Shown: piece by piece, positions 40,197 to 56,423 of the stretch
How the letters are laid out: each line of letters starts with the position of its first letter
Position numbering within the stretch: position 1 is the first letter of the stretch
NCBI GenBank assembly: GCA_016219285.1
Contig: JACRNJ010000011.1
Location: 1 to 60,223, forward strand
Origin: Deltaproteobacteria bacterium
GTDB lineage: Bacteria; Desulfobacterota; GWC2-55-46; UBA9637
DNA length: 60,223 nucleotides
Direction: 5' to 3'
Translations under genes and position numbers: made by a program
Notes under the pieces: model-generated
Seen by the model: only the letters and a program-made list of their open reading frames with translations
Told to the model about the DNA's origin: nothing
Databases searched by the model: none

Positions 40197-41429
40197 ATGA
40201 CACAGAAAATTGTCAATTTTTTTATTCCACTATTATTGGTTTTTATGATTCAACAACTTGCCAATGCAGAATCACAGGTTGTTAATGCTGCCGGCGTTGC
40301 GCCGTTTAGTCCTGGCGGCGAGGCAAAGGCAAAGGAGATGGCCATTCATGACGCCTTGCGGCAGGCCGTTGAGCAGGCAGTTGGAACTATGGTTGCATCA
40401 GAGACAGTGGCAGAAAATTATCAAATAATAAGGGATAATATTGTTACAAAGACGCAGGGATATATCCAAAAATACGATGTGGTAAGCGCTGGGGTTAAAG
40501 GAAATCTCTATGAAGTTACCATATCTGCGACTGTGGCGGTTGAAAATCTGCAAAATGACCTTGCTGCCATTGGGCTTTTGCACTCAAGGGTAGAAAAGCC
40601 GAGGGTTTTATTTATGATCGCAGAGCAAAATGTAGGCCAGGAATATTATCTGTTCTGGTGGTACGGAAAGAGCGAGTTTAAGGGCCAGCATTTTGATATG
40701 TCAGCGTCCGAGACTGCCATGAAGCAAGAGTTTATAAGCAAGGGCTTTAATATTGTTGACATTTCAGCTGCTACGGGTAAAACTGAAATATCAAATGCAT
40801 ATCGCATCGCTGATTTGACAGATACAGGGGCAAAAGAAATAGGAAGTAAGCTTGGCGCAGAGGTTGTTATAAAGGGTAAGGCTCTGGCAAAGGCTGGCCC
40901 GAGAATGCCTGGCAGCAGCGTTGGCTCGTATATTGCCGATATTACCGCATCGGCCATTCGTGTGGATAATGGCGCTGTGCTTGCATCGGCAATGGGTCAT
41001 GGTGTGAGCAGAAATATTTCAGAAGTAACAGGTGGAACAGAGGCATTGGAAAGGGCTTCAAAAGAGCTTTCCGGCAAGCTCATAGAACAGATTACTGCCA
41101 AGTGGAGCCAGGAGGTTCAGGGTGGCGGCCTAATTCAGATAACAGTGCGTGGCATTGAAGAATATTCCGACCTGTCGATTTTCAAAGATGTGGTAAAGGC
41201 GCAAATAAGGGGCGTTAATGCAGTTTATCAAAGGGATGTGGAAGGCGTGGAGGCTACAATTGAGGTGGATTATAAGGGGAATGCCCAGCAGCTCGCAGAT
41301 GAGATTTCAAAAAAGAAACTTAAGGAAATTCCAAAACTTAAGGTGACAGGCGCAACAGCAAATACAATAGAAGTAAGTTTTGGAGGGTCTGCAGCGCCGC
41401 CTTCAAAACTGCCTGAAGCGCTGCATTAG
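40197..41429 (+). CDS. Exported protein with FlgT/CsgG-like N-domain
   Basis: Signal peptide ('IVNFFIPLLLVFMIQQLANA', about residues 5-24). After it, 'AAGVAPFSPGGEAKAKEMAIHDALRQAVEQAVGTMV' matches the N-terminal domain of flagellar FlgT and related surface proteins, and 'GAEVVIKGKALAKA' to 'AIRVDNGAVLASAMG' a CsgG/FlgO-like middle domain. The last 100 residues repeat an 'IQITVRGIEEYSDLSIFKD' module. No flagellar genes are nearby, so it probably works at the outer membrane with the following lipoproteins. Good Shine-Dalgarno (AGGAGGAGGGGTGTT). Confidence 0.75.
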   Translation: MTQKIVNFFIPLLLVFMIQQLANAESQVVNAAGVAPFSPGGEAKAKEMAIHDALRQAVEQAVGTMVASETVAENYQIIRDNIVTKTQGYIQKYDVVSAGVKGNLYEVTISATVAVENLQNDLAAIGLLHSRVEKPRVLFMIAEQNVGQEYYLFWWYGKSEFKGQHFDMSASETAMKQEFISKGFNIVDISAATGKTEISNAYRIADLTDTGAKEIGSKLGAEVVIKGKALAKAGPRMPGSSVGSYIADITASAIRVDNGAVLASAMGHGVSRNISEVTGGTEALERASKELSGKLIEQITAKWSQEVQGGGLIQITVRGIEEYSDLSIFKDVVKAQIRGVNAVYQRDVEGVEATIEVDYKGNAQQLADEISKKKLKEIPKLKVTGATANTIEVSFGGSAAPPSKLPEALH

Positions 41430-41770
41430 CCGTCTTATGGCTGTTCCACCCCTCAACAGCTAAAACTAAGGGTGAGGCGCAATTCTTCCGTCTCCATGAT
41501 TCAAAAGAGTTATGGGTCAAGTATTTCTGGAAAACGAGATATGCTGAGGAGATGGATATACGGATATGCAGGTAGGCGCTCTCGCGATTTGTTTTGAAGG
41601 CAACGGCAAAAGCGACAATATCTATCATGCGCCTGAAAATAAAAATTAGTGAACGTGCCGCTAACTGGTTTATGGGGCGGGTGACAGACACATCAGATAT
41701 TAACAAGGGTGCGGTGCGTATTGACACATACAATTGTTCGCCGGAAGCTATACGAATCTCCATACAGTAG
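41423..41770 (+). pseudogene. Degenerate small secreted-protein gene (several frameshifts)
   Basis: Three overlapping frames each read like protein and join in order: 'ALAVLWLFHPSTAKTKGEAQ' and 'ELWVKYFWKTRYAEEMDI' (frame ending near 41575), 'MQVGALAICFEGNGKSDN' (to 41649), then 'NWFMGRVTDTSDINKGAV' ending at TAG 41768-41770. The N-terminus resembles a signal peptide. I know no family. Its place between two surface-protein genes suggests a lost operon member. Confidence 0.5.
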
Positions 41771-41800
41771 AACAGGCGGGACAAAAGGCATGGTGTTTGT

Positions 41801-42805
41801 ATGAAAGAAGTCAGGAGTCAGGAGTCAGAAGTCAGAAGCAAGAAGCAAGAAACAAGAAGTCAGAAGCAAGAAAAAATCTTATCTCTTGCCGCTTACCTCT
41901 TACCTCTTGTTCTGCTGCTACTTCTCTTTTCTGGTTGTGTTATGCCGCGGCCATATATACCGCCTAACCCTGCCAATCCCATAAAGATAGTGGCCGTGCT
42001 TCCCATGGTAAATCAAACTAATGATGTGGAGGGCCCTGAAAAAGTGAGGGAGATATTTGCCGCTAAATTGACGGAGAGGTGTTATCTCTACAAGCCTATA
42101 CAAGAGGTAAATCAGATACTCAAGCATGAGTTTGGTGTCACGCTTGGTTCACAGCTTGATATGACCAATCATCAGGAATTGGGCAAGAAGCTCGGGGTGG
42201 ATGGTGTTATATATGGCACACTCTTCAATTTTGAAGAAAAGACTACCGGTATCCTGAATATCAGAAGGGTAAGAGCAGGCTTCAAGCTGGTTGATACCAA
42301 GACAGGAACGGTGGTATGGGGAAGAGGACAGGGTATCAAAGGCGAAACAAGGATGACCGAGGGGGATGCAGGCACAGTGGCAGGCGCTGCCTCCGGGATC
42401 AGCAAATATCAGGATATAAAAGAGGGAACAGATAATAAGGATGTCGGCGACTATGCCGGGGTGCAGGATTGGCACTATCTGCCGCCGGAAAGGGCCATGA
42501 GCGAAGAGCTTGGGCAGGGCGGGATTATTGCAGGTTTTGTTAGCGGTCTTGCAGAGAAGGCCGTTAAAAAGGCAACAGGCACGTTCCTTAAACGTGAGTC
42601 GGAAGTTATGATAGACAGGATGCTCCGTACCCTGCCTGTCGGCCCCGGCTCAGCCTTGTGCGGCAGAGCTAAGGTTGCGGCTGTTGTTATACCTATGCCT
42701 GCAATACCTGAGCCGAAAATGCCTGAATTCAGCATGCCAGGCTATTTTGAATTCGGCAAAAGGGATTTTACCGATGATTATAACGTCTATAGTCAAGTCA
42801 AATAA
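41801..42805 (+). CDS. GNA1162/DUF799-type outer-membrane lipoprotein
   Basis: Lipobox 'LLLLFSGC' near residue 46, then 'IKIVAVLPMVNQTNDVEGPEKVREIFAAKLTERCYLYKPIQEVNQIL' and 'GKKLGVDGVIYGTLFNFEEKTTGILNIRRVRAGFKLVDTKTGTVVWG', the pattern of DUF799/GNA1162 lipoproteins with a TolB-N-like fold. The first 25 residues ('EVRSQESEVRSKKQETRSQ') come from the GTCAGGAGTCAG repeat placed before the signal sequence. Co-directional with neighbours of the surface operon. Confidence 0.8.
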   Translation: MKEVRSQESEVRSKKQETRSQKQEKILSLAAYLLPLVLLLLLFSGCVMPRPYIPPNPANPIKIVAVLPMVNQTNDVEGPEKVREIFAAKLTERCYLYKPIQEVNQILKHEFGVTLGSQLDMTNHQELGKKLGVDGVIYGTLFNFEEKTTGILNIRRVRAGFKLVDTKTGTVVWGRGQGIKGETRMTEGDAGTVAGAASGISKYQDIKEGTDNKDVGDYAGVQDWHYLPPERAMSEELGQGGIIAGFVSGLAEKAVKKATGTFLKRESEVMIDRMLRTLPVGPGSALCGRAKVAAVVIPMPAIPEPKMPEFSMPGYFEFGKRDFTDDYNVYSQVK

Positions 42806-43002
42806 TGAAAATATGACATTTGATGCGGAGATTGTAAAACTTGGAGAAGGGTTTCATGGGAGGACGACCTTCTGAATAAGTGAAAATTATAAATGATGAA
42901 GTTTTTTACAAGTTGAGTCTTTGTTGGTTGCCTTTTGGGTGGGGATAATATCGTCCAGCAAATAATAACTGGATTAGAAAAACAAGAAAGGAGGGATGGG
43001 AG

Positions 43003-43956
43003 ATGAAGCATGTAATGGAGATGGTTGGCCGCGCGTTGTTATCACTGGTTGTCCTGTATGTATTTACAGGTTGTACACCAACTATGACAGGCGTGGTGAA
43101 ACAAGATACTACTTTGAGCGGTGAGGGTAAAAAACTTGAGGAGGCCGGGCTAAACTATTCAGGGCCTGAGTACACAATAGGTATTATCACATTTAAAAAT
43201 AAGAGCAGGACGCCTGGTCTTGAACAGCCGACAACAGACACATTGGCTACAATTATAAAATCAGCAGGCCTTGAGCCAATCATGCTTACCGAAGATGAGA
43301 TGAGAGAGCAGGAAGAGATGATTAAGCTGCAGCAGACAGGCGCGGTAAAAAAAGGCAAGAAAGATGCCGCAGAGGATTTTGAATCTATAGATTTCCGCAT
43401 ATCAGGCTCTATCACTGCGTATTCAGAGGTGGAAGAGGGATCTGATGTTCTAATTGCGCAGTCAAAGACACAGGTGGCAAGGGTTCAGGTTGATTATGGT
43501 TTGGTTGATATAGCTACTGGAAAGAGGCTTTTGCAGAAATCCGGCGCAGGTGAATACAGGAAAAAGACAGGCGGCATATTGGGATTTGGTTCAAAATCCA
43601 GCGCAGATGTTGGACTTAGAGACGGCGCTTTGAGGGATGCTCTTACTAAGGCGATGAGCGAGATGATTGATGAGTTGAATAAGAGGCCATTCCAGAGTAA
43701 AATAATGCTCGTTGATGGTAAGACAATAATATTCAGGGGCGGAACAAAATCTAAATTGGAGGCTGGCACAAAGCTTGGAGTATACAGGCCAGGGGCAGAT
43801 TTGGTTGACCCGGACACAGGCAGGGTTATCGGCAAAAGAGAGAAACAAGTCGGCGAGATAATGCTGACCAGCCATCAAAGTGAAAAGGTTTCAGAAGGCG
43901 CTATTTCCTCAGGTATGGGTTTCCAGGCAGGAGATATTGTAAAGGCGATAAAATAA
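43003..43956 (+). CDS. CsgG-family lipoprotein
   Basis: Lipobox 'VLYVFTGC' near residue 25. The body ('YTIGIITFKNKSRTPGLEQPTTDTLATIIKSAGLEPIMLTEDEM', 'DFRISGSITAYSEVEEGSDV', 'VARVQVDYGLVDIATGKRLLQKSGAGEY') fits the CsgG fold, which in curli systems forms an outer-membrane export pore. The C-terminal 80 residues resemble a FlgT C-terminal domain ('GTKLGVYRPGADLVDPDTGRVIG'). Strong Shine-Dalgarno (AAAGGAGGGATGGGAG). It may be a structural lipoprotein rather than a pore. Confidence 0.8.
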   Translation: MKHVMEMVGRALLSLVVLYVFTGCTPTMTGVVKQDTTLSGEGKKLEEAGLNYSGPEYTIGIITFKNKSRTPGLEQPTTDTLATIIKSAGLEPIMLTEDEMREQEEMIKLQQTGAVKKGKKDAAEDFESIDFRISGSITAYSEVEEGSDVLIAQSKTQVARVQVDYGLVDIATGKRLLQKSGAGEYRKKTGGILGFGSKSSADVGLRDGALRDALTKAMSEMIDELNKRPFQSKIMLVDGKTIIFRGGTKSKLEAGTKLGVYRPGADLVDPDTGRVIGKREKQVGEIMLTSHQSEKVSEGAISSGMGFQAGDIVKAIK

Positions 43957-44011
43957 AGACAGGTTAAGGTTGAGCAAAAAATTTGTCTCTGCTTAACCTC
44001 AGCCTAAACTT
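43957..44011. repeat. GGTTAAGGTTGAG hairpin, copy 1
   Basis: AGACAGGTTAAGGTTGAGC ... GCTTAACCTCAGCCTAAAC; precedes the SLH gene ribosome binding site. Related copies at 45249 and 46206. Confidence 0.65.
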
Positions 44012-44040
44012 CAAGCTATGTTTTATAAGGAGGTATAATT

Positions 44041-45249
44041 ATGAAAAGGTTCAGTGCAGTTTGGTTGTTATTTTTAGGTCTTTTAGTGGCGTATGGCTGT
44101 GCAAAGCCTATTGCTAAATGTACGACTCCGGAGGATAACCCGCCGCATCATTATGCCAGGGGTATGGAGCTTCTGGAGCAGGGTAAGATTGGCGATGCGG
44201 AGACAAAGTTTGAGAGGGCATTGTATTGTGATGCAGGGTATAGTCCGGCGCATGGTGGTCTGGCTATGGTCAACGCTGAAAAGGCAAAGACTCAAAAGGA
44301 ACCAGGCTATCGTCAGACAGATACCGGCAAGGCAATGGATCACCTAAAACATGCGAAAAAACTTGCAAATACAAAAGAGGATGAGTTTGCATATCATGTT
44401 GCAGGCCTGAGAGTTGCTACAGGGTTGAAGACCAAAGCATGGCTCTATGACGCAGAAGACCACGTTAAAGATGCAATAAAGCTCACTGTGGATGAACGCA
44501 AGCTTATCTATTATGAAGGCAAGGAGGCTGCCCAGTATTTTATGGGTGTTGCCTATCTTGAGGCAAGAGAGTTTCAAAAGGCAAGAGATAAGTTCAGTGA
44601 AACCATTAGCATGAAGAGGGAAGGCAAGTGGAACGAGAAGGCAGACAAAGGGTGGAAGCGGGTAGATAAGATAGTCAGGGCAATGGGCGGGATTACGCTT
44701 GGCCATGTCGGTAAGGAGATAGCCATGAGGGAATCTGTCAATAGGGGCGATATGGCTGCGCTTCTGGCAGATGAGCTAAAGATAAATAAGCTATTTGCTG
44801 GAAGGCTTCCTGTAAAAAGCGAGATAGATAAACTTAAGGCGGAGTTTACACCGGCAGATGTGCTAAACCACCACTTTAAAGAAGAGGTGCTTACTATGAT
44901 GAAGTGGGGGATAAGGGGGCTTGAGCCGCAATATGATCAGACAACAAAGGCAAATCTTTTTAAACCGGATAACGGCGTAACAAGAAAGGAATTTGCCCTG
45001 GTATTGGAGGATATACTGGTAAAACTTACCGGTGATGAAAAGATTACTACTGCCTATTTTGGCCATGAGAGGTCGCCGTTCCCGGATGTGCCGGCCACAG
45101 CGCCATGGTATAATGCGGTGATGAATATGACCACAAGGGGGCTTATGGAGACGGAGCTTTCAGGCGAATTCAGGGTTAATGAGCTTGTGGATGGCGCTGA
45201 AGCTATTCTGGCGATTCGGGTATTGAGACAGAGGATGAATATATATTAA
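44041..45249 (+). CDS. TPR and SLH-domain outer-membrane lipoprotein
   Basis: Lipobox 'LGLLVAYGC' (Cys about residue 20). Residues 40-210 contain tetratricopeptide-like repeats ('HYARGMELLEQGKIGDAETKFERALY', 'YFMGVAYLEAREFQKARDKFSE'). The C-terminal part has S-layer-homology modules ('VNRGDMAALLADEL', 'VTRKEFALVLEDILVKL', 'FPDVPATAPWYNAVMNMTTRGLM'). It probably links the outer membrane to peptidoglycan or a surface layer and scaffolds the neighbouring proteins. Confidence 0.82.
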   Translation: MKRFSAVWLLFLGLLVAYGCAKPIAKCTTPEDNPPHHYARGMELLEQGKIGDAETKFERALYCDAGYSPAHGGLAMVNAEKAKTQKEPGYRQTDTGKAMDHLKHAKKLANTKEDEFAYHVAGLRVATGLKTKAWLYDAEDHVKDAIKLTVDERKLIYYEGKEAAQYFMGVAYLEAREFQKARDKFSETISMKREGKWNEKADKGWKRVDKIVRAMGGITLGHVGKEIAMRESVNRGDMAALLADELKINKLFAGRLPVKSEIDKLKAEFTPADVLNHHFKEEVLTMMKWGIRGLEPQYDQTTKANLFKPDNGVTRKEFALVLEDILVKLTGDEKITTAYFGHERSPFPDVPATAPWYNAVMNMTTRGLMETELSGEFRVNELVDGAEAILAIRVLRQRMNIY

Positions 45250-45332
45250 AAACAGGTTAAGGTTGAGGTCAAGGTTAAGGAAAGACAAATAATAGGTTTT
45301 TCTCAACCTCAACCTTAACCTCAACCTGTATT
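45249..45332. repeat. GGTTAAGGTTGAG hairpin, copy 2
   Basis: Arms ACAGGTTAAGGTTGAGGTC... and ...CTCAACCTTAACCTCAACCTGT around a 20-base centre; ends just before AAAGGAGG of the next gene. Confidence 0.8.
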
Positions 45333-45348
45333 CAAAAGGAGGTTTCTT

Positions 45349-46197
45349 ATGGAGAGATTTATATTTATGCTTTCATTTTTGTTTTTGGCAATGCCTGTTA
45401 TTGTAAAGGCACAACAGCCGCCTCAGCTTGTAACAGACCAAACCCAAGCCTTTATAAAAGGAGGGTTTGTGGTAAAAGGCGAAGGGGTGCCTAAAGAAGG
45501 CATTACACACCCTGGTCAAAAAGAATTGACTGCTAAAAGGGCAGCGACGGTAGTTGCACAAAGAAATCTGGCAGAGATTTTAAATGGTATCAGGATTTCC
45601 GGCCAGACTACGGTAAAGGATGCGGCATTGGAGTCTGAGTTGATAAGGAGTTCGGTTGAAGGGATGATAAAAGATATAAAACCTATTTATGAGGCATACG
45701 ACTCTTTAAAAGAGGTTGCCATTGTTTATATTTCCGTGGGTGTTGACGGACCTAACGGTCTTACAGGCCATCTCTTGCCTCAGATGCTGTCCACACTTCC
45801 ACAGCCTACAGCGCCTGCCTATGCTCCGCCTGCAACTCCGCCGCCAGCGCCGCAGCAGCCTTATGATGCCCTTATATTGGACATAAAAGAGCATCCATTC
45901 AAACCGGCGCTTATAAACAGGATATTGGCTCAGAACGGTGAGATGCTTTATGATCCGACCAAGATTGCCCAGAATATTCTGGTAGAAAGAGGCGCTGGCG
46001 ACTATACAAATGATGTTGGCAAGGCAAAGGCGATACTATCTGAAAGAGGCGCTAAAAACCCACTGGTAGTCAAGGCGTCTGGTGTTGTGAAGTTTACCGA
46101 TGTTCAGGTAACCGGAGACGATGCGGCAAATATATTTACCGCCAACCAAAAGTCTAACTTTCTGGAAGGCGCAAAGGTTGTATTTGTGCTGAAGTGA
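45349..46197 (+). CDS. LPP20-like exported protein
   Basis: Signal peptide residues 1-22 ('FIFMLSFLFLAMPVIVKA'). The N-domain 'VVKGEGVPKEGI', 'ELTAKRAATVVAQRNLAEILNGIRI', 'SSVEGMIKDIKPIY' fits the LPP20 family. After a Pro/Ala linker ('PTAPAYAPPATPPPAPQQP') the C-domain 'DALILDIKEHPFKPALINRILAQNGEMLYDP' and 'VVKFTDVQVTGDDAANIF' follows. LPP20 relatives are surface or outer-membrane proteins. No clear lipobox Cys is seen. Confidence 0.78.
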   Translation: MERFIFMLSFLFLAMPVIVKAQQPPQLVTDQTQAFIKGGFVVKGEGVPKEGITHPGQKELTAKRAATVVAQRNLAEILNGIRISGQTTVKDAALESELIRSSVEGMIKDIKPIYEAYDSLKEVAIVYISVGVDGPNGLTGHLLPQMLSTLPQPTAPAYAPPATPPPAPQQPYDALILDIKEHPFKPALINRILAQNGEMLYDPTKIAQNILVERGAGDYTNDVGKAKAILSERGAKNPLVVKASGVVKFTDVQVTGDDAANIFTANQKSNFLEGAKVVFVLK

Positions 46198-46294: not shown

Positions 46295-47041
46295 ATGAGA
46301 AAGACTTTACTATCGCTCGCTGTTTTTGCAGTATCAATTTTCTTTTATTCTAGCGCCGAGGCCATTGTTCATGTAGAGGGCAGATATTGGTTTACAAGCC
46401 TTAATTCAAAGGTAAAAGCAACAGAAACCAGTCTTATAGGCACGGAGATTGATTTGGCAGATACCCTTGGAATGAGCAAGTCTAAGGATTTCTGGGAGGC
46501 AAGAATTGATTTAAATCTTGGCGACCATCACCTTATGTACAGCTATATGCCATTATCCTGGAGTGGGCAGAAGACTATAACCCAATCTGTAAACTTTGCC
46601 GGCACAACTTATGCTGCCAATGCGCAGGTTGATTCTAAATTAGATATAATTTATCAAAGGGTAGGATACAGATATAATATAATTGATAGAATTGGCAACC
46701 AACTTGGCGTTATCTTTGACGTGAAAATACTTGATATAAAAACAAATCTCAAAACAACAGCCGTTGACGAATCTTATTCGGTTACTGTGCCTATTCCAAC
46801 TATAGGGCTGGGCGCTCAGGTTGGATTGCCATTTTTATTATCTTTTGGCGGAGAGATAACTGGCATTGCATATGGCGGCAATCAACTGATAGACTGGGAG
46901 GCCTATATAAATTTCAATCCTGTTCCTTTTACTACCATATCAGGCGGCTATAGGACTTTTGGCTTGAATGTAAAGGATAAGGACAATAAAGTGGATTTTT
47001 CATTGGCAGGGCCGTTTTTAATGGTAAATGTAGGATTTTAA
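46295..47041 (+). CDS. Outer-membrane beta-barrel protein
   Basis: Signal peptide ('LLSLAVFAVSIFFYSSAEA', residues 4-22). The rest shows alternating hydrophobic/polar strands ending 'FSLAGPFLMVNVGF' with a C-terminal Phe, the usual BAM signal. 248 residues would give a small 8-10-strand barrel. Function unknown; it ends the run of surface-protein genes before mlaE. No homologue recognised. Confidence 0.75.
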   Translation: MRKTLLSLAVFAVSIFFYSSAEAIVHVEGRYWFTSLNSKVKATETSLIGTEIDLADTLGMSKSKDFWEARIDLNLGDHHLMYSYMPLSWSGQKTITQSVNFAGTTYAANAQVDSKLDIIYQRVGYRYNIIDRIGNQLGVIFDVKILDIKTNLKTTAVDESYSVTVPIPTIGLGAQVGLPFLLSFGGEITGIAYGGNQLIDWEAYINFNPVPFTTISGGYRTFGLNVKDKDNKVDFSLAGPFLMVNVGF

Positions 47042-47212: not shown

Positions 47213-47998
47213 ATGTCTATATTCAGATACCTTGGCAGGATAGTTTTATCATTTCTTTATGACCTCTATGAGATAGGGGACTTTGTAATATCTTCCGTAA
47301 GTTCACTTCTATTTAACTTCACTACAGGCAGAAGGGCCATATCCAGCATTATATATAAACAGGTATATTTTACCGGTATTGAGGCCTTTTCCATCATTTC
47401 ATGGATTGCTGCAATACTTGGCATTATCATTGTTACGCAGGTTATCAGCATACTTCCATTCTTCGGCGGTGAGAGACTTATAGGTGAAATACTAGTATGG
47501 GTAGTTATAAGGGAGCTTGGTCCTGTGTTTGCAGGAATAATTGTCATAGCCAGAAGCGGGACTGCTATGGCTGCAGAACTTGGTTCTATGCGGGTGAATG
47601 ATGAGATTACTGCGCTTGAGGCTATGGGGATAGAACCAAAGAGATACCTTGTTGCGCCAAGGGTCGTAGGGACTGCGATTTCTGTTTTTGTTTTAACCTT
47701 TTATTTTGAAGTCATAACAATACTTGGCGGCTATCTGTTGGCCGGTTTTGGCAAACGGATAACATTTGGCGTATATATATCCAGTGTGCTGGAGACTATT
47801 GGATTTATGGACATTGCCGCATCGCTTTTGAAAAGTGTAGTATTTGGTCTTATAATAGGCGCTGTAGCTACACTTCACGGCCTAAGGGTTGGGAAGTCAA
47901 TAACGCAAATTCCACAACAGACTACAAAGGCAGTAATAAGCAGCCTCTTTCTTGTATTTGTAGTGGATGGTATAATAACAGCAATGTTTTTCATGTAG
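47213..47998 (+). CDS. mlaE: MlaE-family lipid ABC transporter permease
   Basis: Inner-membrane permease of the MCE lipid-transport system between inner and outer membranes. Visible family blocks: 'VIREL GPVFAGIIVIARSGTAMAAELGSMRVNDEITALEAMGIEP'-type stretch around residues 100-145 and 'YLVAPRVVGTAISVFVLTFYFEVITILGGYL'. About five hydrophobic helices, 261 residues. Followed by mlaF-like and mlaD genes, so the operon core E-F-D is complete. Confidence 0.93.
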   Translation: MSIFRYLGRIVLSFLYDLYEIGDFVISSVSSLLFNFTTGRRAISSIIYKQVYFTGIEAFSIISWIAAILGIIIVTQVISILPFFGGERLIGEILVWVVIRELGPVFAGIIVIARSGTAMAAELGSMRVNDEITALEAMGIEPKRYLVAPRVVGTAISVFVLTFYFEVITILGGYLLAGFGKRITFGVYISSVLETIGFMDIAASLLKSVVFGLIIGAVATLHGLRVGKSITQIPQQTTKAVISSLFLVFVVDGIITAMFFM

Positions 47999-48050
47999 CC
48001 TGCCGATTTATCGGCGTCTTTTAAAGCGTCCATAAATCGGCAAGCTGCAA
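47996..48050. repeat. Palindromic element (GCCGATTTATCGGC family) between mlaE and mlaF
   Basis: GTAGCCTGCCGATTTATCGGC-GTCTTTTAAAGC-GTCCATAAATCGGCAAGC, starting at the mlaE stop codon. Confidence 0.75.
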
Positions 48051-48082
48051 ATACGTTGATAAAGCAGCTGCAATCTTTCAAA

Positions 48083-48754
48083 ATGTCCAAACTAATAGAG
48101 ATAAAAAATCTTTGTTATACAGCAGAGAACGGCATCGCAATATTTGAAAATGTTGATGCGGCATTTTATGAAGGTGAAAAAGTTGGTATAATAGGGGCGC
48201 TTGGTTCTGGTAAAGCTACGCTAACGAGGCTGTTGCTCGGACTTGAAAAACCTCAAATGGGCAGGGTTTACTTATTTGATAAGGATATAGAGTCACTTAA
48301 GCGGCCAGAACTTGACAGGATGAGGCAGGAGATAGGTGTTGTCTTTGAAAACGCTGCAGTGATAAGCAACCTCAAGGTGATTGAAAATGTTATGCTTCCA
48401 CTCCAATACCATGCCAATTTGGCTTCTGATAGTATAATGGAACGGGCATTTTTTTTGCTCAGCCGTATGGGATATGAGGGCGATATATGGACCCTTCCAG
48501 GGCCTTTGCCGTCTCGCACTAAAAAGATTATTGTTTTGGCCAGGGCAATGGCATTAGACCCTGTAATAATGATATATGACAGGCTCTTGCAAGGGTTTGA
48601 CAGCTATCAAAGTTTGCAACTGCTTGGGTTTATAGATGAATTTCATAAAAGCAGGAATGACAGGTTAAGCATTATGTTAGCCAACGATGAAAGAGATTTA
48701 AAAGATGTGAGGTTGGACAGGATATTAAGGATAGAAAACAGGAGAATTGTTTAA
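48083..48754 (+). CDS. mlaF: MlaF-like ABC protein with degenerate ATPase motifs
   Basis: ABC nucleotide-binding fold in the mlaE-F-D position, yet catalytic motifs are changed: Walker A 'GALGSGKAT' has Ala after Lys; the Q-loop Gln is Glu ('VVFENAA'); the LSGGQ signature reads 'PLPSRTKK'; the Walker B Glu is Arg ('VIMIYDRLLQGFD'); the switch His is Asn ('IMLANDERD'). Surrounding framework ('IVLARAMALDPVIMIYD') is well kept, so the protein folds but is unlikely to hydrolyse ATP. Start set at the ATG 'MSKLIEIKNL'; a TTG nine codons earlier is possible, and neither has a clear Shine-Dalgarno. Confidence 0.82.
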   Translation: MSKLIEIKNLCYTAENGIAIFENVDAAFYEGEKVGIIGALGSGKATLTRLLLGLEKPQMGRVYLFDKDIESLKRPELDRMRQEIGVVFENAAVISNLKVIENVMLPLQYHANLASDSIMERAFFLLSRMGYEGDIWTLPGPLPSRTKKIIVLARAMALDPVIMIYDRLLQGFDSYQSLQLLGFIDEFHKSRNDRLSIMLANDERDLKDVRLDRILRIENRRIV

Positions 48755-49717
48755 ATGGCAGCAACGATGGCAGAACAAAAGGATCCTCGGTTTAGAAATC
48801 TGGAAAAAAAGGTGGGCATATTTGTTTCTATTGTTTTTGTGATGTTATTGGCTATCTTCTTTTTAATGGGAAAGGAGCGGGGCATATTCACACAAAAATA
48901 TATTCTATTTTTTACCGTTGACAGCGGGAGCGGTTTTATTGAGGGAATGCCGGTGAAATTATCAGGATTTAAAATTGGTAAGGTGAAGACTATGTCTTTG
49001 ATTTCCGATGCGAGGGTAAAGGTGGTTCTTGAGATAAATAAGGAATATCAAAAATGGATAAGACAAGGTTCTGTTGCAAAGATGCTAAAAGAAGGGGTTA
49101 TAGGAGAGACTATTATAGATATTACGGTAGGACCTGCTTCTTCCCAACTGATAAAAGACCAAGGCGAGCTTCCCTATGAAAAGGTGATGGGCATAGAAGA
49201 GCTTATTGCAAAAGAGGTAAAGCCAGTCCTTCAAGAAGTGAAGGAAACTATAAGCTATATAAATAATCCTGATAGTGACATAAAAAAAGCTATTGCCAAT
49301 GTCAAAAAATTGTCCGAAGGTTTGTTAAAAACAAAGGACCGCCTGGATGAGGTTTTGAAAGATGCGAAGGGCGCTGTTAAGGAAGCAACCTCTATATTTT
49401 CTAACCTTGGTGAAAAGGCCTTGCCTGTGGTGGATAAATTTAATAATGTCGCAGAAGATGCAGAAAAGGCATCAAAAAAAATTCCAGAGATTGTAGACAA
49501 GGTTGATAAAGCCATGGATGATGTGAAGCAGTTTTCTGATGTTCTTTCCAAAAAAAGCGGCAATATAAAAGATATGCTGGAAAATGCAGAAGACACATTG
49601 AATGATACAAAAGAGATTATAAAAGGGGCAAAGGATACATGGCCAATAAATACGATGGTGCCTCCTAAAGAAGAGATGAAACTTATTCCGTTAGATGGTG
49701 CTGGGAAAGGGCAATAA
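48755..49717 (+). CDS. mlaD: MlaD-family MCE-domain protein
   Basis: One N-terminal transmembrane helix ('VGIFVSIVFVMLLAIFFLMG', residues 20-40), then the MCE domain ('FFTVDSGSGFIEGMPVKLSGFKIGKVKTMSL', to 'VIGETIIDITVG', residues 50-130), then a long heptad-rich coiled coil (150-290) that may extend into the periplasm. It forms the lipid-binding ring of the transport system. The start is 1 bp after the mlaF stop. Confidence 0.92.
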   Translation: MAATMAEQKDPRFRNLEKKVGIFVSIVFVMLLAIFFLMGKERGIFTQKYILFFTVDSGSGFIEGMPVKLSGFKIGKVKTMSLISDARVKVVLEINKEYQKWIRQGSVAKMLKEGVIGETIIDITVGPASSQLIKDQGELPYEKVMGIEELIAKEVKPVLQEVKETISYINNPDSDIKKAIANVKKLSEGLLKTKDRLDEVLKDAKGAVKEATSIFSNLGEKALPVVDKFNNVAEDAEKASKKIPEIVDKVDKAMDDVKQFSDVLSKKSGNIKDMLENAEDTLNDTKEIIKGAKDTWPINTMVPPKEEMKLIPLDGAGKGQ

Positions 49718-50724
49718 TGCAAAAGGAAATTACGAATTACGAATTACGAATTACGAATTTAAAATCTAAAATCGTAAATCTTAAATCTCAAATCCTTTTG
49801 CTGCTTGCTGTTTACTGCATACTGCTTACTGTCTTCACAGGTTGCGCTTCCACAAAAAAATCTGAACTGCCGAAGGTTCAGATTGAGGCGGTTGAATATA
49901 ATCAGAGAGGGGTTGATGCAGTTGCAGCAGGAAGCTATGACAAGGCATTGATTGAATTTCAGAAGTCTCTTAGATTGAATACGAGCATTGACAATCAGAA
50001 GGGGATTGCTGTAAATCTTTTGAATTTAGGAAGGCTTTATCTTCTTATGAATAGGTTTGATGATGCCAGTGTGGTATTTGATAGAGCAATAAAAACAGGT
50101 AGTAGTCTTAACGACCAAATTATTCTTTCTGAAGGTTATGCAAGCATGGGGAGGTACTATTATCTAACCGGCAATAATAAAGATGCTATAGATGTTTTGG
50201 AAAAGGCCCTGAATATAGACCGCAAGGAAGGCTATCATGGGATAGGCAGCAGACTTAACATCATGGGGATGCTGTACATGGATAGCAACAGACTGGAAGA
50301 TGCTGAAAAGGTATTTGGTGAGGCCTTGAAATTAAACAAGGATTATGGAATGGAAGCAGATACAGCGGATTCATTCAGAGGATTAGGAGATGTTTCAGCC
50401 AAAAAGGAAGATTATAAAAAGGCTATGGAGTTATATGAAAACGCCCTTGTGATAGATAAAAAAAGCGGCCGAGGCGCTCATATTGCCATTGACTTGTATG
50501 CTCTTGGAAACGTAAGCCTCAAGGAGAATGCTGCGGAAAAGGCGCTGGATTTTTTTCTAAGGGCATATGCAGTTAACTTAAGCCGGGGCGATGTCAAGAT
50601 GGCATTGAAAAATCTTGACATTATAATTGAGATATATACGCGGTCGAAGGATAAGAATAGTGTGGAGATATATTCTTCGGAAAGAGAAAAAGTCTTGAGC
50701 AAAGAAATGGATTACAAAAAGTGA
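49717..50724 (+). CDS. TPR lipoprotein
   Basis: Lipobox 'LLTVFTGC' near residue 42. Residues 55-320 contain at least six TPR units ('AVAAGSYDKALIEFQKSLRLN', 'NLGRLYLLMNRFDDASVVFDRAIK', 'YYLTGNNKDAIDVLEKALNID'). The first 25 residues ('EITNYELRITNLKSKIVN') come from an AATTACGAATTACG repeat (49728-49794) in front of the signal sequence. The start overlaps the mlaD stop. It is likely an outer-membrane scaffold for the transport system. Confidence 0.83.
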   Translation: MQKEITNYELRITNLKSKIVNLKSQILLLLAVYCILLTVFTGCASTKKSELPKVQIEAVEYNQRGVDAVAAGSYDKALIEFQKSLRLNTSIDNQKGIAVNLLNLGRLYLLMNRFDDASVVFDRAIKTGSSLNDQIILSEGYASMGRYYYLTGNNKDAIDVLEKALNIDRKEGYHGIGSRLNIMGMLYMDSNRLEDAEKVFGEALKLNKDYGMEADTADSFRGLGDVSAKKEDYKKAMELYENALVIDKKSGRGAHIAIDLYALGNVSLKENAAEKALDFFLRAYAVNLSRGDVKMALKNLDIIIEIYTRSKDKNSVEIYSSEREKVLSKEMDYKK

Positions 50725-51896: not shown

Positions 51897-54800
51897 ATGC
51901 CTGAACAAAAACAGTTATTTTTCCTGAACAATCAAAATCTTTTCTCAAACAATTATCTTGAGCATCGCCTGCCCGCAGCCTCTTTGTGGAAAGAACAGGG
52001 AGAAAAGGCCGGCGGCGTTTTTGATAACATAAAAAAGTTGTATGAGGCGATAAAACCGTTAAAACTCGGTTCCGGTGAAGAGGCAGGCATTGAAGAAAAA
52101 TTCATTCGGCCTGTTCTCAAAACCCTTGGCTATGAATTTGACGTTCAGCCGAGAACCCAAAGGGGCTATAAGAAAAAGCGGCCTGATTATGCGCTTTTCA
52201 AAGACAACGTATCTTATGAAGAAGCCCGCAAGGAAAAAGATAACATCCCGCGTTTTTTCACGCAAGCGCTCACCATATTAGAGGCCAAATCATGGGGAAG
52301 GCGGCTGAACGACACAGACCCCAAAGACGCCCTTGATACCCGCGACCCTACAGCACAAACCGTAAAATATCTTGACGATGTCTATCATGCCTCGCAAGGC
52401 CGCATCCAATGGGCGATTCTCACGAACGGCAAAGAGTGGCGGCTCTTTTATTACCGGGCAGCATCCCGCTCAGGAAATTTCTTTGAAGTAAGTCTTGAAA
52501 ATATCATCAGAGAAAACGACAGGGAAAAATTTCTATATTTTTATCTTTTTTTCTCAAGAGACGCCTTTATCCCTGATTTGGCAACCGGCAAGACCTGGCT
52601 TGACCTGCATCTTGACGGCAGCGAGGCTTATGCAAAGGCTGTCAGCGACAGACTAAAGGAACTCATCTTTGACGAGGCGTTTGAAGGGCTTGCAGAGGGG
52701 TTTATCCATTACCGGAGGACTGAACTTTCCATTTCGGAAGAAAGCGATGAAAGCAAAAAGGAAATCTTCAAAGGCTGCCTGACGCTCCTTTACCGCCTGC
52801 TTTTTCTGCTGTATGCCGAAAGCAGAAATCTCCTCCCTGTTGAAGAAGAGGGTTACCGCAGGGTAAGCCTTAAAAAACTCAAAGAGGATATTTACCGCGA
52901 CCTCCCCCTATCTCCCTCCAGAGGGGGACAAGGGGAGGCGCCGGATAAAACTTGTCCCCGAACGTATCTATCGGGGATGAGCAAAAGGTCTTATGCCTGC
53001 TATGCAAGGCTGGAAGGGCTTTTTGAGATTATTGCCAAAGGCGACCCTGCGCTCAATGTTCCCATCTATAACGGAGGATTATTTGAAAATAATCCCCCCA
53101 TTCCCCCTTTAGCAAAGGGGGGCAAGGGGGGATTTCTTGCAGCCCATAAAATACCCGACCCGTATCTTGCAAAAGTTGTTAATCTGCTGACCGTTGACCA
53201 TGAAGATACACACATGCCTCGTGCAATTCCGTTTATAGATTATTCCTCTCTCAATGTCCGCCATCTTGGCGATATTTACGAAGGTCTGCTGGAGTTTCAT
53301 ATTCAGATTGCAGATGAGGATATGGTTGAAGTCAGAGAAGGCGGCAGGGCAATATGGAAAAAACTATCCCCCGATAGAGACGTTCGAGGGCAGGCAGAGG
53401 TAAAAACCGGCGCAAAGACCGGCAGAAGAAAAATAAAAGGCGAAATCTATATCGAGAATTCAAAGCATGAGCGCAAGGCAACAGGCTCATATTACACGCC
53501 GCATTACATCGTGGAATATATCGTCCGAAACACCGTAAATCCTGCGCTGGAGAAAGGGTTTGAAACTGTCGTAGGACTTCTGGCGCAGCTTGAACAGACC
53601 GTAAAGGCGTCAAGCAAACAGAATTTATCAACGGATAGGATAAGGAGTTACCGCGCAAAAATATTGGAGATTGAAGAAGCGATATTCAATGTCATCTTTG
53701 ACATAAAAGTCCTTGACCCTGCTATGGGAAGCGGACACTTCCTTGTGCATACGGTTGATTTTATATCAGACAAAATTATCTCCTTTCTTGCCGGTTATCC
53801 CGGAAATCCTGTCATAAAAAAGATAGCAGGTTTAAAACAGGAAATTATCGGCGAAATCAACCGGCAGGGAGTCAGAATTGATGAAAGCAAACTCACGGAG
53901 GTCAACCTCATAAAGCGAATGGTGATGAAACGGTGCATCTACGGCGTTGACCTCAATGAAATGGCGGTTGAACTTGCAAAACTTTCGCTGTGGCTTGATT
54001 CGTTTACCCTCGGTGCGCCCTTGAGTTTTCTTGACCATCACTTGAAATGCGGGAATAGCCTGATAGGCGCAAATCTTGAGGCTCTTGAAAAGGCTACGGA
54101 AGGCCAGCTCTTTAAAATAAATATCGAACCGCTGAAAAGGGCTATACGGGATATGCTTTTCATATCCAGCCTGTCCGACGCCACATATCAGCAGGTAAAG
54201 GACTCGGCAAGCAAATACAGGGAAGCGGATACAAGCGTTGAAGGATACAGGATGCTCCTTGATATGCTTGTATCGGAACACTTTGGAATCAAAGAGGCAA
54301 AGAGTTTTCTTCTGGACAAGGGGACAAAGATAGACCTGAATAACCTCAAAAAATCCATTGATTCAATGTCTGCTAAAGATAAAAAAGTTATAGAGGATAT
54401 TGAAAAGGCTGCCGCAAGAAAACAGTTCTTCCACTGGGAAATAGAGTTTCCAGAGGTTTTCTACGAGCGGGTTGGCGAGCATGAACAAAAAGTGGAGAAA
54501 AAAGAAAATGCCGGATTTGACTGTGTCATAGGAAATCCGCCGTATGATGTTTTGTCCGAACTTGAACAAGGAAAAGAGGTTGCATTGGAAAAAGAGTTTT
54601 TCTCACAAAGTGAAACATATAAACATGCTGTCGGAAGTAAACTGAATTTTTACCGTCTCTTTAGCGGGTTATCTTTGAACTTACTCCAAAACAAAGGTGT
54701 GCATGGATTTATTGTTCCGATGGCGCTGCTGGCCGATAAACAGGCTAAACCCCTCCGCGAGAATATGCTGAAAAAATATTCTTTTCAGAAAATAGAAGCC

Positions 54801-56423
54801 TTTCCGCAAAAAGACGATCCAACAAACAGGATATTTTTTGAGGCCAAGCTTTCCACATGTATTTACATCCTTAAAAAAGACAAGCCTTCATTGTTTTCAG
54901 TGAGAATACATCCGGGCAAAGACATACTTGAGACTTCAAATTCTTTATTGATTACACCGCACCAGATTGAAGAATTTGACAAAGAAAACCTGAGTATTCC
55001 AAGTTATCCCGATATGACCGGAGAGGATTTTAAACTTGCCTTGCAGTTGAACGGAACCTCTAACGGAATTACTCTCGGACACTTTGCACCATCTCAGCAA
55101 GGCGAGGTTAATCTTACAGGGCATTGCGATTTTTTGACAGACGAAAAAAAAGGGCAAGTTGTTTTAAGAGGCGGCCACATAAACCGTTATGAATTTCAAG
55201 AAGAGCCAAAGCAGGGCGAGCCCATGTATCTCGATGTTAAAAGATTTCTTGATGCACATGGCAAAAATACAAAGGCGTATGATTACAGGCACACCCGCAT
55301 TGGTTATCAGAGAGGAGCGGCAATAGACAACTGGCGGAGAATAATAGCGACCATAGTTGAAAAAGATAATTTTTGCTCCGACACAATAAACTACATAATT
55401 ACGCCTAAAGAATATAATCTCTTTGCCATTCTTGCTCTCTTGAACTCCTCGTTGTGGGAGTGGAGATTCAGACTTACAAGCACAAACAACCATGTAAATT
55501 CCTATGAGATTGACTCTATGCCCATGCCTCCAATCTCCTTTACCACCCCTGAAAAAGAGAGGAAGGAGAAAGTTTTTGAGGCGATTGGACTTTATGAGAA
55601 ATATATGTTAGAGTTAAACAAAGGAACCAAGTATGCAGAAACAGAAGCCCAAAAAGAACATAGTAGAGCAGTGGAGGATGACCCTCACAACGGAAGAAAA
55701 ACTGAGAAAATATCTGGAAAGCATTCCGGCGCAGGTAAGCGCATCTATGGCATTCGAGGGCGAGTATGTAAGCCTGAAGATGTTGAAAGAGTATCTGAAA
55801 AGCCTGAAGAATATCGCACAACCGCACGACACACACGTTTCATAGAGTCCAGCCTCGGCATCAAATCATACTCTGAACTTGCCCCTCACCTTGCAAAAGG
55901 GGTGGAGCGCGTCATGACTTCTCTCCTTGAACACCCTGCCAATGAGTTGAGGATAATCCCTGAATTTATCTGCAAGCTTCATAAGAATGCATTTGTAGAG
56001 TTTTTCCCTTCCTGGGCGGGGTGTTACAGGGATAGGGATGTAACCGTTGGCACATACAATCCTCCGCCATATTATGAAGTGCCTGTTTTAATGCGGCAAT
56101 ACTGCGATGATGTTGAATTTCGCCTCTCTTCTCTTGGAATCAAGCCGCAGGTTAATGATATACTTTTTGAAGCCTTTGCGTTTGTCGAAGGCAGGTTGTT
56201 GAGCATACATCCCTTTGTTGATTTCAATGGCAGAATTGCGAGGATGCTTCTTTTCGGTTTGCTTTACAGATTAGACCTTCCGCCAGTGCAGCTTGTCCCT
56301 GATGAGAAAGATGAAAAGGGAAAAAAGGAATATTTTGATGCCCTTGCAAAAGCCGACACAATGGACTGGCAGCCGCTAATTGAGGTCTGGAGGAAAAGAT
56401 TCGGGAGCGGCAAGCAAATATGA
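51897..56423 (+). CDS. Type IIG restriction-methylation enzyme with fused Fic domain
   Basis: N-terminal nuclease with RPDY...(x)EAK (D97, E129xK131; 'KKRPDYALF', 'ILEAKSW'); methylase motif I 'LDPAMGSGHFLVHT' (about 606) and motif IV 'GNPPYDV' (about 879); TaqI-like specificity region ending 'SYEIDSMPMPPISF' near residue 1210. Beyond this the frame crosses the overlapping antitoxin-like ORF and enters a Fic domain with 'HPFVDFNGRIAR' (from H1438), where the usual G after D/E is Phe. Three dispersed repeats are read in frame ('PLSPSRGGQGEAPDK', 'PPIPPLAKGGKGGF', 'LSPDRDVRGQAE'). The missing C-terminus is in the next ORF. 1508 residues. Confidence 0.85.
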   Translation: MPEQKQLFFLNNQNLFSNNYLEHRLPAASLWKEQGEKAGGVFDNIKKLYEAIKPLKLGSGEEAGIEEKFIRPVLKTLGYEFDVQPRTQRGYKKKRPDYALFKDNVSYEEARKEKDNIPRFFTQALTILEAKSWGRRLNDTDPKDALDTRDPTAQTVKYLDDVYHASQGRIQWAILTNGKEWRLFYYRAASRSGNFFEVSLENIIRENDREKFLYFYLFFSRDAFIPDLATGKTWLDLHLDGSEAYAKAVSDRLKELIFDEAFEGLAEGFIHYRRTELSISEESDESKKEIFKGCLTLLYRLLFLLYAESRNLLPVEEEGYRRVSLKKLKEDIYRDLPLSPSRGGQGEAPDKTCPRTYLSGMSKRSYACYARLEGLFEIIAKGDPALNVPIYNGGLFENNPPIPPLAKGGKGGFLAAHKIPDPYLAKVVNLLTVDHEDTHMPRAIPFIDYSSLNVRHLGDIYEGLLEFHIQIADEDMVEVREGGRAIWKKLSPDRDVRGQAEVKTGAKTGRRKIKGEIYIENSKHERKATGSYYTPHYIVEYIVRNTVNPALEKGFETVVGLLAQLEQTVKASSKQNLSTDRIRSYRAKILEIEEAIFNVIFDIKVLDPAMGSGHFLVHTVDFISDKIISFLAGYPGNPVIKKIAGLKQEIIGEINRQGVRIDESKLTEVNLIKRMVMKRCIYGVDLNEMAVELAKLSLWLDSFTLGAPLSFLDHHLKCGNSLIGANLEALEKATEGQLFKINIEPLKRAIRDMLFISSLSDATYQQVKDSASKYREADTSVEGYRMLLDMLVSEHFGIKEAKSFLLDKGTKIDLNNLKKSIDSMSAKDKKVIEDIEKAAARKQFFHWEIEFPEVFYERVGEHEQKVEKKENAGFDCVIGNPPYDVLSELEQGKEVALEKEFFSQSETYKHAVGSKLNFYRLFSGLSLNLLQNKGVHGFIVPMALLADKQAKPLRENMLKKYSFQKIEAFPQKDDPTNRIFFEAKLSTCIYILKKDKPSLFSVRIHPGKDILETSNSLLITPHQIEEFDKENLSIPSYPDMTGEDFKLALQLNGTSNGITLGHFAPSQQGEVNLTGHCDFLTDEKKGQVVLRGGHINRYEFQEEPKQGEPMYLDVKRFLDAHGKNTKAYDYRHTRIGYQRGAAIDNWRRIIATIVEKDNFCSDTINYIITPKEYNLFAILALLNSSLWEWRFRLTSTNNHVNSYEIDSMPMPPISFTTPEKERKEKVFEAIGLYEKYMLELNKGTKYAETEAQKEHSRAVEDDPHNGRKTEKISGKHSGAGKRIYGIRGRVCKPEDVERVSEKPEEYRTTARHTRFIESSLGIKSYSELAPHLAKGVERVMTSLLEHPANELRIIPEFICKLHKNAFVEFFPSWAGCYRDRDVTVGTYNPPPYYEVPVLMRQYCDDVEFRLSSLGIKPQVNDILFEAFAFVEGRLLSIHPFVDFNGRIARMLLFGLLYRLDLPPVQLVPDEKDEKGKKEYFDALAKADTMDWQPLIEVWRKRFGSGKQI
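55633..55845 (+). CDS. FicA/VbhA-like antitoxin ORF overlapping the IIG-Fic gene
   Basis: 70 codons in another frame than the host ORF, with its own Shine-Dalgarno (AAAGGA, 7 bp before the ATG). It contains 'SASMAFEG', matching the Fic-inhibiting (S/T)xxxE(G/N) motif (S38, E42, G43), and ends just where the Fic domain begins in the host frame. In that host frame the same DNA gives a low-complexity Lys/Glu/Arg stretch, so this frame is the real coding one. It is either a separate antitoxin or the N-terminus of a Fic gene split by a frameshift. Confidence 0.7.
   Translation: MQKQKPKKNIVEQWRMTLTTEEKLRKYLESIPAQVSASMAFEGEYVSLKMLKEYLKSLKNIAQPHDTHVS

Follow-up and report, generated by a model that had tools for sequence, protein, structure and literature searches.

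In one group of uncultured "Deltaproteobacteria," an Mla-type transporter probably moves lipids between membranes without an ATP-driven motor of its own, because its motor subunit has lost every ATP-burning residue and yet has been kept by selection. We favor, with moderate confidence, the reading that this subunit, termed MlaF* here, is a fixed and functional pseudo-ATPase, most likely serving as a scaffold in a lipid conduit that runs on a gradient and not on ATP; the transport mechanism is inferred, and neither ATPase activity nor transport was measured. The direction of Mla transport (inward versus outward) and the role of ATP have been argued for years, and a natural Mla system whose ATPase was removed by evolution while the rest was conserved provides a test case for both. 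If MlaE2F*D2 still moves lipids, ATP is dispensable for passage through MlaE and MlaD, and the direction of flow becomes readable without a pump. If the reading is true, this would also be an ABC transporter without a functional nucleotide site in either half. No description of an Mla nucleotide-binding domain (NBD) lacking catalytic motifs, or of a fully degenerate homodimeric ABC NBD, was found in the literature searched, which included few subscription papers and does not amount to proof.

The core of an MCE/Mla operon is present in the window (the whole stretch of DNA analyzed, 60,223 nucleotides), with mlaF* located between the gene for an MlaE permease and the gene for an MlaD MCE protein (Table 1). 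A PqiA/LetA-type inner-membrane protein is not the permease at this locus.

Table 1. Features of the mlaE2-mlaF*-mlaD2 locus, in window coordinates
Feature	Position	Strand	Description and basis
Small outer-membrane beta-barrel-like protein	46295..47041	+	Upstream of mlaE2; weak Pfam OMP_b-brl match
mlaE2	47213..47998	+	Divergent MlaE-type permease, 261 aa, partner of the pseudo-ATPase; Pfam MlaE (PF02405) 211 bits
mlaF*	48083..48754	+	Predicted pseudo-ATPase NBD of MlaF type, 223-aa open frame; hydrolysis residues replaced, MlaF C-terminal extension absent
Degenerate Walker A	48194..48217	+	GALGSGKA, Ser/Thr to Ala; alignment with intact paralogue and orthologues
Q-loop and following stretch	48347..48412	+	Gln to Glu, then ENAAVISNLKVIENVMLPLQYH, highly conserved and expected to form the helical subdomain that faces MlaE
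Signature	48506..48526	+	LSGGxKK to LPSRTKK; alignment with intact paralogue and orthologues
Walker B	48566..48583	+	IMIYDR, Asp kept, catalytic Glu to Arg; alignment
mlaD2	48755..49717	+	N-terminal TM helix, one MCE domain; Pfam MlaD 45.5 bits
TPR lipoprotein	49717..50724	+	Start overlaps the mlaD2 stop

MlaF* matches Pfam ABC_tran with 66.5 bits (cut-off 25), a sequence search of solved structures places MlaF of P. aeruginosa (1.1e-29) and then of A. baumannii first, and its AlphaFold2 model is an NBD (pLDDT 92.8) for which Foldseek ranks E. coli MlaF highest (6xgz and 6xbd, TM 0.86-0.93). The fold and operon position, which the preliminary description took to be kept, are those of an MlaF. 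Alignment with the intact MlaF encoded on contig C23 of this genome also bears out every loss that the description listed: the Walker A Ser/Thr is replaced by A, the Q-loop Gln by E, LSGG of the LSGGQ signature by LPSR, the catalytic Glu by R, and the switch His by D, while the Walker A Lys and Walker B Asp are retained. The chain, at 223 residues against 248 in the intact paralogue, stops directly past the last strand and lacks the C-terminal extension, which forms the MlaF handshake (PMC7367683). In a large Mla survey, MlaF was identified by profile and synteny and its annotation was called uncertain (PMC10665443); here, MlaF* falls below the NCBIfam MlaF equivalog cut-off (85 of 441 bits), and because it does not have the full set of hydrolysis motifs (GK[S/T] in Walker A, the Q-loop Gln, LSGG, the catalytic Glu, and the switch His), it was not filed as an active MlaF ATPase. 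As far as residues alone can establish it, MlaF* has an MlaF-type NBD fold that cannot form a standard ABC hydrolysis site, and the case for a non-ATPase, made from sequence, is strong.

The losses extend across the orthologue family. With the window MlaF* as the query, 28 full-length family members (including itself, and down to 34% identity) were found in 28 genomes of the class, all of them open frames with 0 internal stops and all beside MlaE2 and MlaD2; a class-wide match at 1e-45 was obtained in 29 of the 63 genomes, and three genomes (G007, G014, and G045) carry fragments or have partners cut by contig ends. Elsewhere in the phylum, scores fall sharply (next 168 bits). Weak matches in Desulfobacterales, Omnitrophota, Chloroflexi, and Ezakiella (21-30% identity) were left out, and a match in G124 was dropped, having no MlaE or MlaD in its context. 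Named records matching MlaF* are metagenome-assembled genomes (MAGs) mostly labelled Deltaproteobacteria; the labels Nitrospirae, Proteobacteria, and plain bacterium occur on single records. All genomes that have the second MlaE type encode MlaF* nearby, except where a contig ends, and the mlaE2-F*-D2 order is identical in all loci examined.

Among the 28 orthologues, LSGG, the catalytic Glu, and the switch His are each retained in none, the Q-loop Gln in six, the Walker A Ser/Thr in 17, and the Walker A Lys in 25, such that the Ser/Thr change seen in the window is limited to some members. The catalytic Glu position has no consistent replacement (N in 15, R in eight, K in two, and S, G, and A in one each), while the Walker B acidic residue is always present (D in nine, E in 19). 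The glycines of the Walker A loop are eroded, the first being Ala in 14/28, and three members from family f10 lack both the Walker A Lys and Ser/Thr (AAN). Under the same analysis, none of the nine scored residues is lost in any of the 13 canonical MlaFs of the phylum, and the MlaF* losses are therefore not due to chance or alignment artefact. The preliminary description had proposed that intact motifs in orthologues, together with relaxed decay of this copy, would refute its reading; this was sought and not found, and the loss of signature, Glu, and His proved fixed in 28/28.

The same description had suggested dN/dS as a check, and the values obtained for MlaF* are well below 1. Pairwise estimates (NG86 and LWL85) were made for 13 species pairs, several of which have high dS. 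By NG86, MlaF* ranges from 0.04 to 0.29 (mostly 0.13-0.19), compared with 0.02-0.18 for MlaE2 and 0.04-0.06 for the canonical MlaF of the second Mla operon, of which the MlaF* value is about three times. In the f10 pair G021/G035, where the Walker A Lys is also gone, MlaF* gives 0.062 versus 0.060 for canonical MlaF with a high dS (1.7), and the AAN members of this family give 0.04-0.06. These codon comparisons show purifying selection on MlaF*. The focus of conservation is no longer the ATP site but the post-Q-loop stretch expected to face MlaE: the 13 catalytic columns have an entropy of 0.00 in canonical MlaF versus 1.56 in MlaF*, where they are not more conserved than the rest (p=0.28), while the 21 post-Q-loop columns of MlaF* are strongly conserved (entropy 0.62 versus 1.71, p=5.5e-7). 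This region of an ABC NBD presumably faces the permease coupling helix, and the coupling-helix region of MlaE2 (ELGSM..NDEITALEAMGIEP) is retained and conserved among MlaE2s in the alignment. Catalytic loss, fixation in the lineage, purifying selection, and a conserved partner surface, taken as criteria for a pseudoenzyme, are thus all met by sequence data, with the lack of activity itself not measured.

Loss of the ATPase motifs looks stepwise when MlaFs are compared, because other families of the phylum have sister operons with intermediate MlaFs, found with a profile mixing MlaF* and two intermediate relatives. All 13 intermediate MlaFs retain the Walker A residues, the Gln, the signature Ser, and the Walker B Asp, and all lack the first signature Gly (replaced by Leu) and the switch His (S, G, or N); the catalytic Glu is present in 11, with Gln in the other two. 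The nearest relatives of MlaF* outside the class are MlaFs without the signature Gly and switch His. In the MlaF tree, MlaF* forms one clade (100/100) on a long stem (1.24) and groups with the intermediates (100/100) apart from canonical MlaF, with I94-S95-N96 and Y109 as markers common to MlaF* and the intermediates. The MlaE tree contains the same three groups, MlaE2 being one group of 28 that is sister to the intermediate MlaEs and apart from canonical MlaE. Some intermediate operons share the order mlaE-mlaF-mlaD-TPR lipoprotein. The intermediates suggest an order of ATPase loss, which remains an inference because the tree root was placed on canonical MlaF. In four loci of one family of the phylum (L100, L131, L132, and L140), a metallo-beta-lactamase-fold gene (PF12706) separates mlaE from the intermediate mlaF.

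The genome of the window contains two PF02405 proteins, namely MlaE2 (211 bits) and an MlaE on contig C23 (283 bits), where an mlaEFD operon encodes an intact MlaF (GRSGEGKS, Q, LSGG, DE, H) and its own MlaD. A search of the genome with the C23 MlaF (530 bits, next 131) revealed no second true MlaF, and the search for paralogues advised in the preliminary description thus yielded only an ordinary intact MlaF in a separate mlaEFD operon; such paralogue counts rest on sequence searches of genomes. No PF05494 (MlaC) match was found in the genome, with a positive E. coli control. MlaC is also absent from other minimal Mla systems. Canonical MlaE is present in 27 of the 30 genomes with MlaE2. In G032 (97% complete), MlaE2/F*/D2 is the only detectable MlaE system (locus L051, contig G032:C68), and canonical MlaE and MlaF were not detected. 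This genome would serve as a natural test for ATPase sharing if it can be closed; it is a MAG in ~110 contigs, and the absence of canonical MlaF is for that reason not proof. Canonical MlaE and MlaF were likewise not found in G004 and G045, but these genomes are less complete.

The distribution of the locus further connects the three genes. Both the closed genome G018 and G022 keep the flanks (FlgT-N-like, GNA1162-like, CsgG-like, SLH-TPR, outer-membrane barrel, and TPR lipoprotein), but between their barrel and TPR lipoprotein genes the whole mlaE2-F*-D2 block is absent; G041 also lacks the block. The absence of the block with its flanks in place indicates that mlaE2, mlaF*, and mlaD2 travel together, and the persistence of the barrel and TPR genes without it indicates that these have a separate life. 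We infer loss rather than a block never gained, because these genomes lie in family f7, in which most other genera have the block. The barrel-like gene is accordingly a conserved neighbor that is kept in genomes without mlaE2-F*-D2, and a TPR lipoprotein gene also adjoins mlaD in several intermediate operons of other families. Past the MCE domain, the mlaD2 product continues with long helices predicted over ~150 residues, followed by a C-terminal tail, DTWPINTMVPPKEEMKLIPLDG in the window, that is conserved in the alignment. In the AlphaFold2 monomer model of MlaD2, a TM helix spans residues 11-41, the MCE domain reaches ~125, and helices span 147-293; the MCE domain is confident, and the helices are of low confidence.

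Four other readings of MlaF* were weighed against this evidence. That mlaF* is simply becoming a pseudogene is hardly tenable: the gene is less constrained than canonical mlaF, but the 28 intact frames, one old clade, a specific surface under strong constraint, and an absence that occurs only together with mlaE2 and mlaD2 all argue against decay, which was rejected on the orthologue survey, dN/dS, and trees. Slow ATP hydrolysis by an unorthodox mechanism could draw on the ever-present Walker B Asp/Glu (D9, E19) and the mostly kept Lys, and is made very unlikely by the joint absence of signature, Glu, and His in every orthologue and by the inconsistent replacement at the Glu site. A nucleotide-sensing gate, in which binding without hydrolysis opens or closes the MlaE2 conduit, appears improbable. 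The Walker A Lys (25/28) and Ser/Thr (17/28) suggest that many members may still need nucleotide binding, and the intermediates have an entire Walker A and Q-loop Gln; against a gate, the window MlaF* lacks the Mg-binding Ser/Thr, the loop glycines are eroded (first Gly is Ala in 14/28), and the three AAN members have neither Lys nor Ser/Thr, yet show dN/dS of 0.04-0.06.

The reading in which another ATPase (the canonical C23 MlaF or some other NBD) drives MlaE2, alone or as a heterodimer with a regulatory MlaF*, is unlikely in our judgment. One intact MlaF is available in the genome (530 bits), canonical MlaE accompanies MlaE2 in 27/30 genomes, MceG is common to all Mce systems in mycobacteria (PMC10517005), and there are well-known ABC heterodimers in which one site is degenerate (PMC7756269). 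However, G032 lacks detectable canonical MlaE and MlaF (as do the less complete G004 and G045), and the geometry of a mixed dimer is unfavorable: the Walker A/B and Glu of MlaF would lie opposite the absent MlaF* signature, while the other site would be without Glu and His, and the mixed dimer therefore has no complete ATP site. MlaF* moreover retains the surface presumed to face MlaE, and canonical MlaF could take that place only by displacing MlaF*. The preliminary description had left a choice between passive or bidirectional transport and another ATPase serving MlaE; passive or gradient-driven transport is now the better-supported inference, with its direction not shown, and the second option is weakened without being excluded, owing to G032 and the mixed-dimer geometry.

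Under the favored pseudo-ATPase reading, two MlaF* subunits would dock on the MlaE2 coupling helices via the conserved post-Q-loop face, and this pair would hold the MlaE2 dimer and an MlaD2 hexamer in one assembled conducting state with no ATP-driven cycle. The absent C-terminal extension fits an NBD pair that no longer cycles. Lipid would pass through MlaE2, the MlaD2 ring, and a helical tube, following a gradient of concentration or affinity toward an acceptor in the outer membrane; the MlaC shuttle, for which no gene was found in the genome, would not take part. The tube is proposed by analogy, with helices modeled at low confidence. ATP hydrolysis in ordinary Mla blocks spontaneous MlaD-to-MlaC transfer (review PMC10212509). 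Because hydrolysis is reported to prevent spontaneous outward transfer there, the direction here would most likely be outward, again by analogy. Active, ATP-driven transport would be left to a separate system, the ordinary MlaEFD of this genome. A larger proposal, on which we find the evidence close to balanced and which we put forward only tentatively, is that a whole ABC transporter lineage was converted stepwise to an ATP-independent conduit, where the NBD dimer is only a structural clamp and lipid flows by gradient, probably outward, via an MCE bridge, beside a separate ATP-driven Mla pump.

The system shares its core gene set with MlaFEDB of E. coli, A. baumannii, and P. aeruginosa (MlaE-type permease, MlaF-type NBD fold, and MCE MlaD). 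It differs from MlaFEDB in an NBD without hydrolysis residues and "handshake" extension, in the lack of MlaC in the genome, in ~150 extra helical residues of MlaD2, and in the TPR lipoprotein and outer-membrane barrel-like genes next door. Minimal Mla systems such as Veillonella parvula MlaEFD and Brucella MpcEFDA are similar, as their long MlaD has been proposed to bridge the periplasm without MlaC (PMC10665443, PMC12436622); in the accessible parts of these sources, however, V. parvula MlaF and Brucella MpcF are described as conserved with ordinary MlaF, and no motif loss is reported. Pqi and Let also form MCE bridges, and their inner-membrane part contains no ATPase (PMC12436622), but they use PqiA/LetA instead of MlaE and lack any NBD-like subunit. 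Mycobacterial Mce systems have MlaE-like permeases, and their shared MceG is a precedent for one ATPase serving several systems (PMC10517005), whereas the operon described here has an NBD-like gene of its own, whose product lacks the catalytic residues. Heterodimeric ABC exporters with a degenerate site, such as TM287/288, likewise show catalytic residue loss in an ABC NBD; those keep one complete consensus site, while an MlaF* homodimer would have none.

Several further observations concern the surroundings of the locus. Upstream of the Mla genes (window 40197-46197) lies a conserved set of genes for FlgT-N-like, GNA1162-like lipoprotein, CsgG-like, and SLH-TPR lipoprotein products and for one protein that no Pfam family matches. 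This cluster, which may serve secretion or the envelope, also occurs in genomes without mlaE2-F*-D2. The mlaE2-mlaF* gap (window 47998-48083) holds an inverted repeat, gccgatttatcggc / ccataaatcggc, which is possibly a REP-like hairpin. In one other genome (G001, L034 4573-8179), the same gap is filled by a 3.6-kb stretch encoding an 852-aa protein that by eye only appears caspase-like with a formylglycine-enzyme-like end, together with a REP-associated transposase-like gene, also identified by eye only. Downstream (window 51897-56423), a 1508-aa protein has, again by eye only, the look of a DNA methylase/restriction enzyme whose C-terminal end carries a Fic-like motif, HPFVDFNGRIAR.
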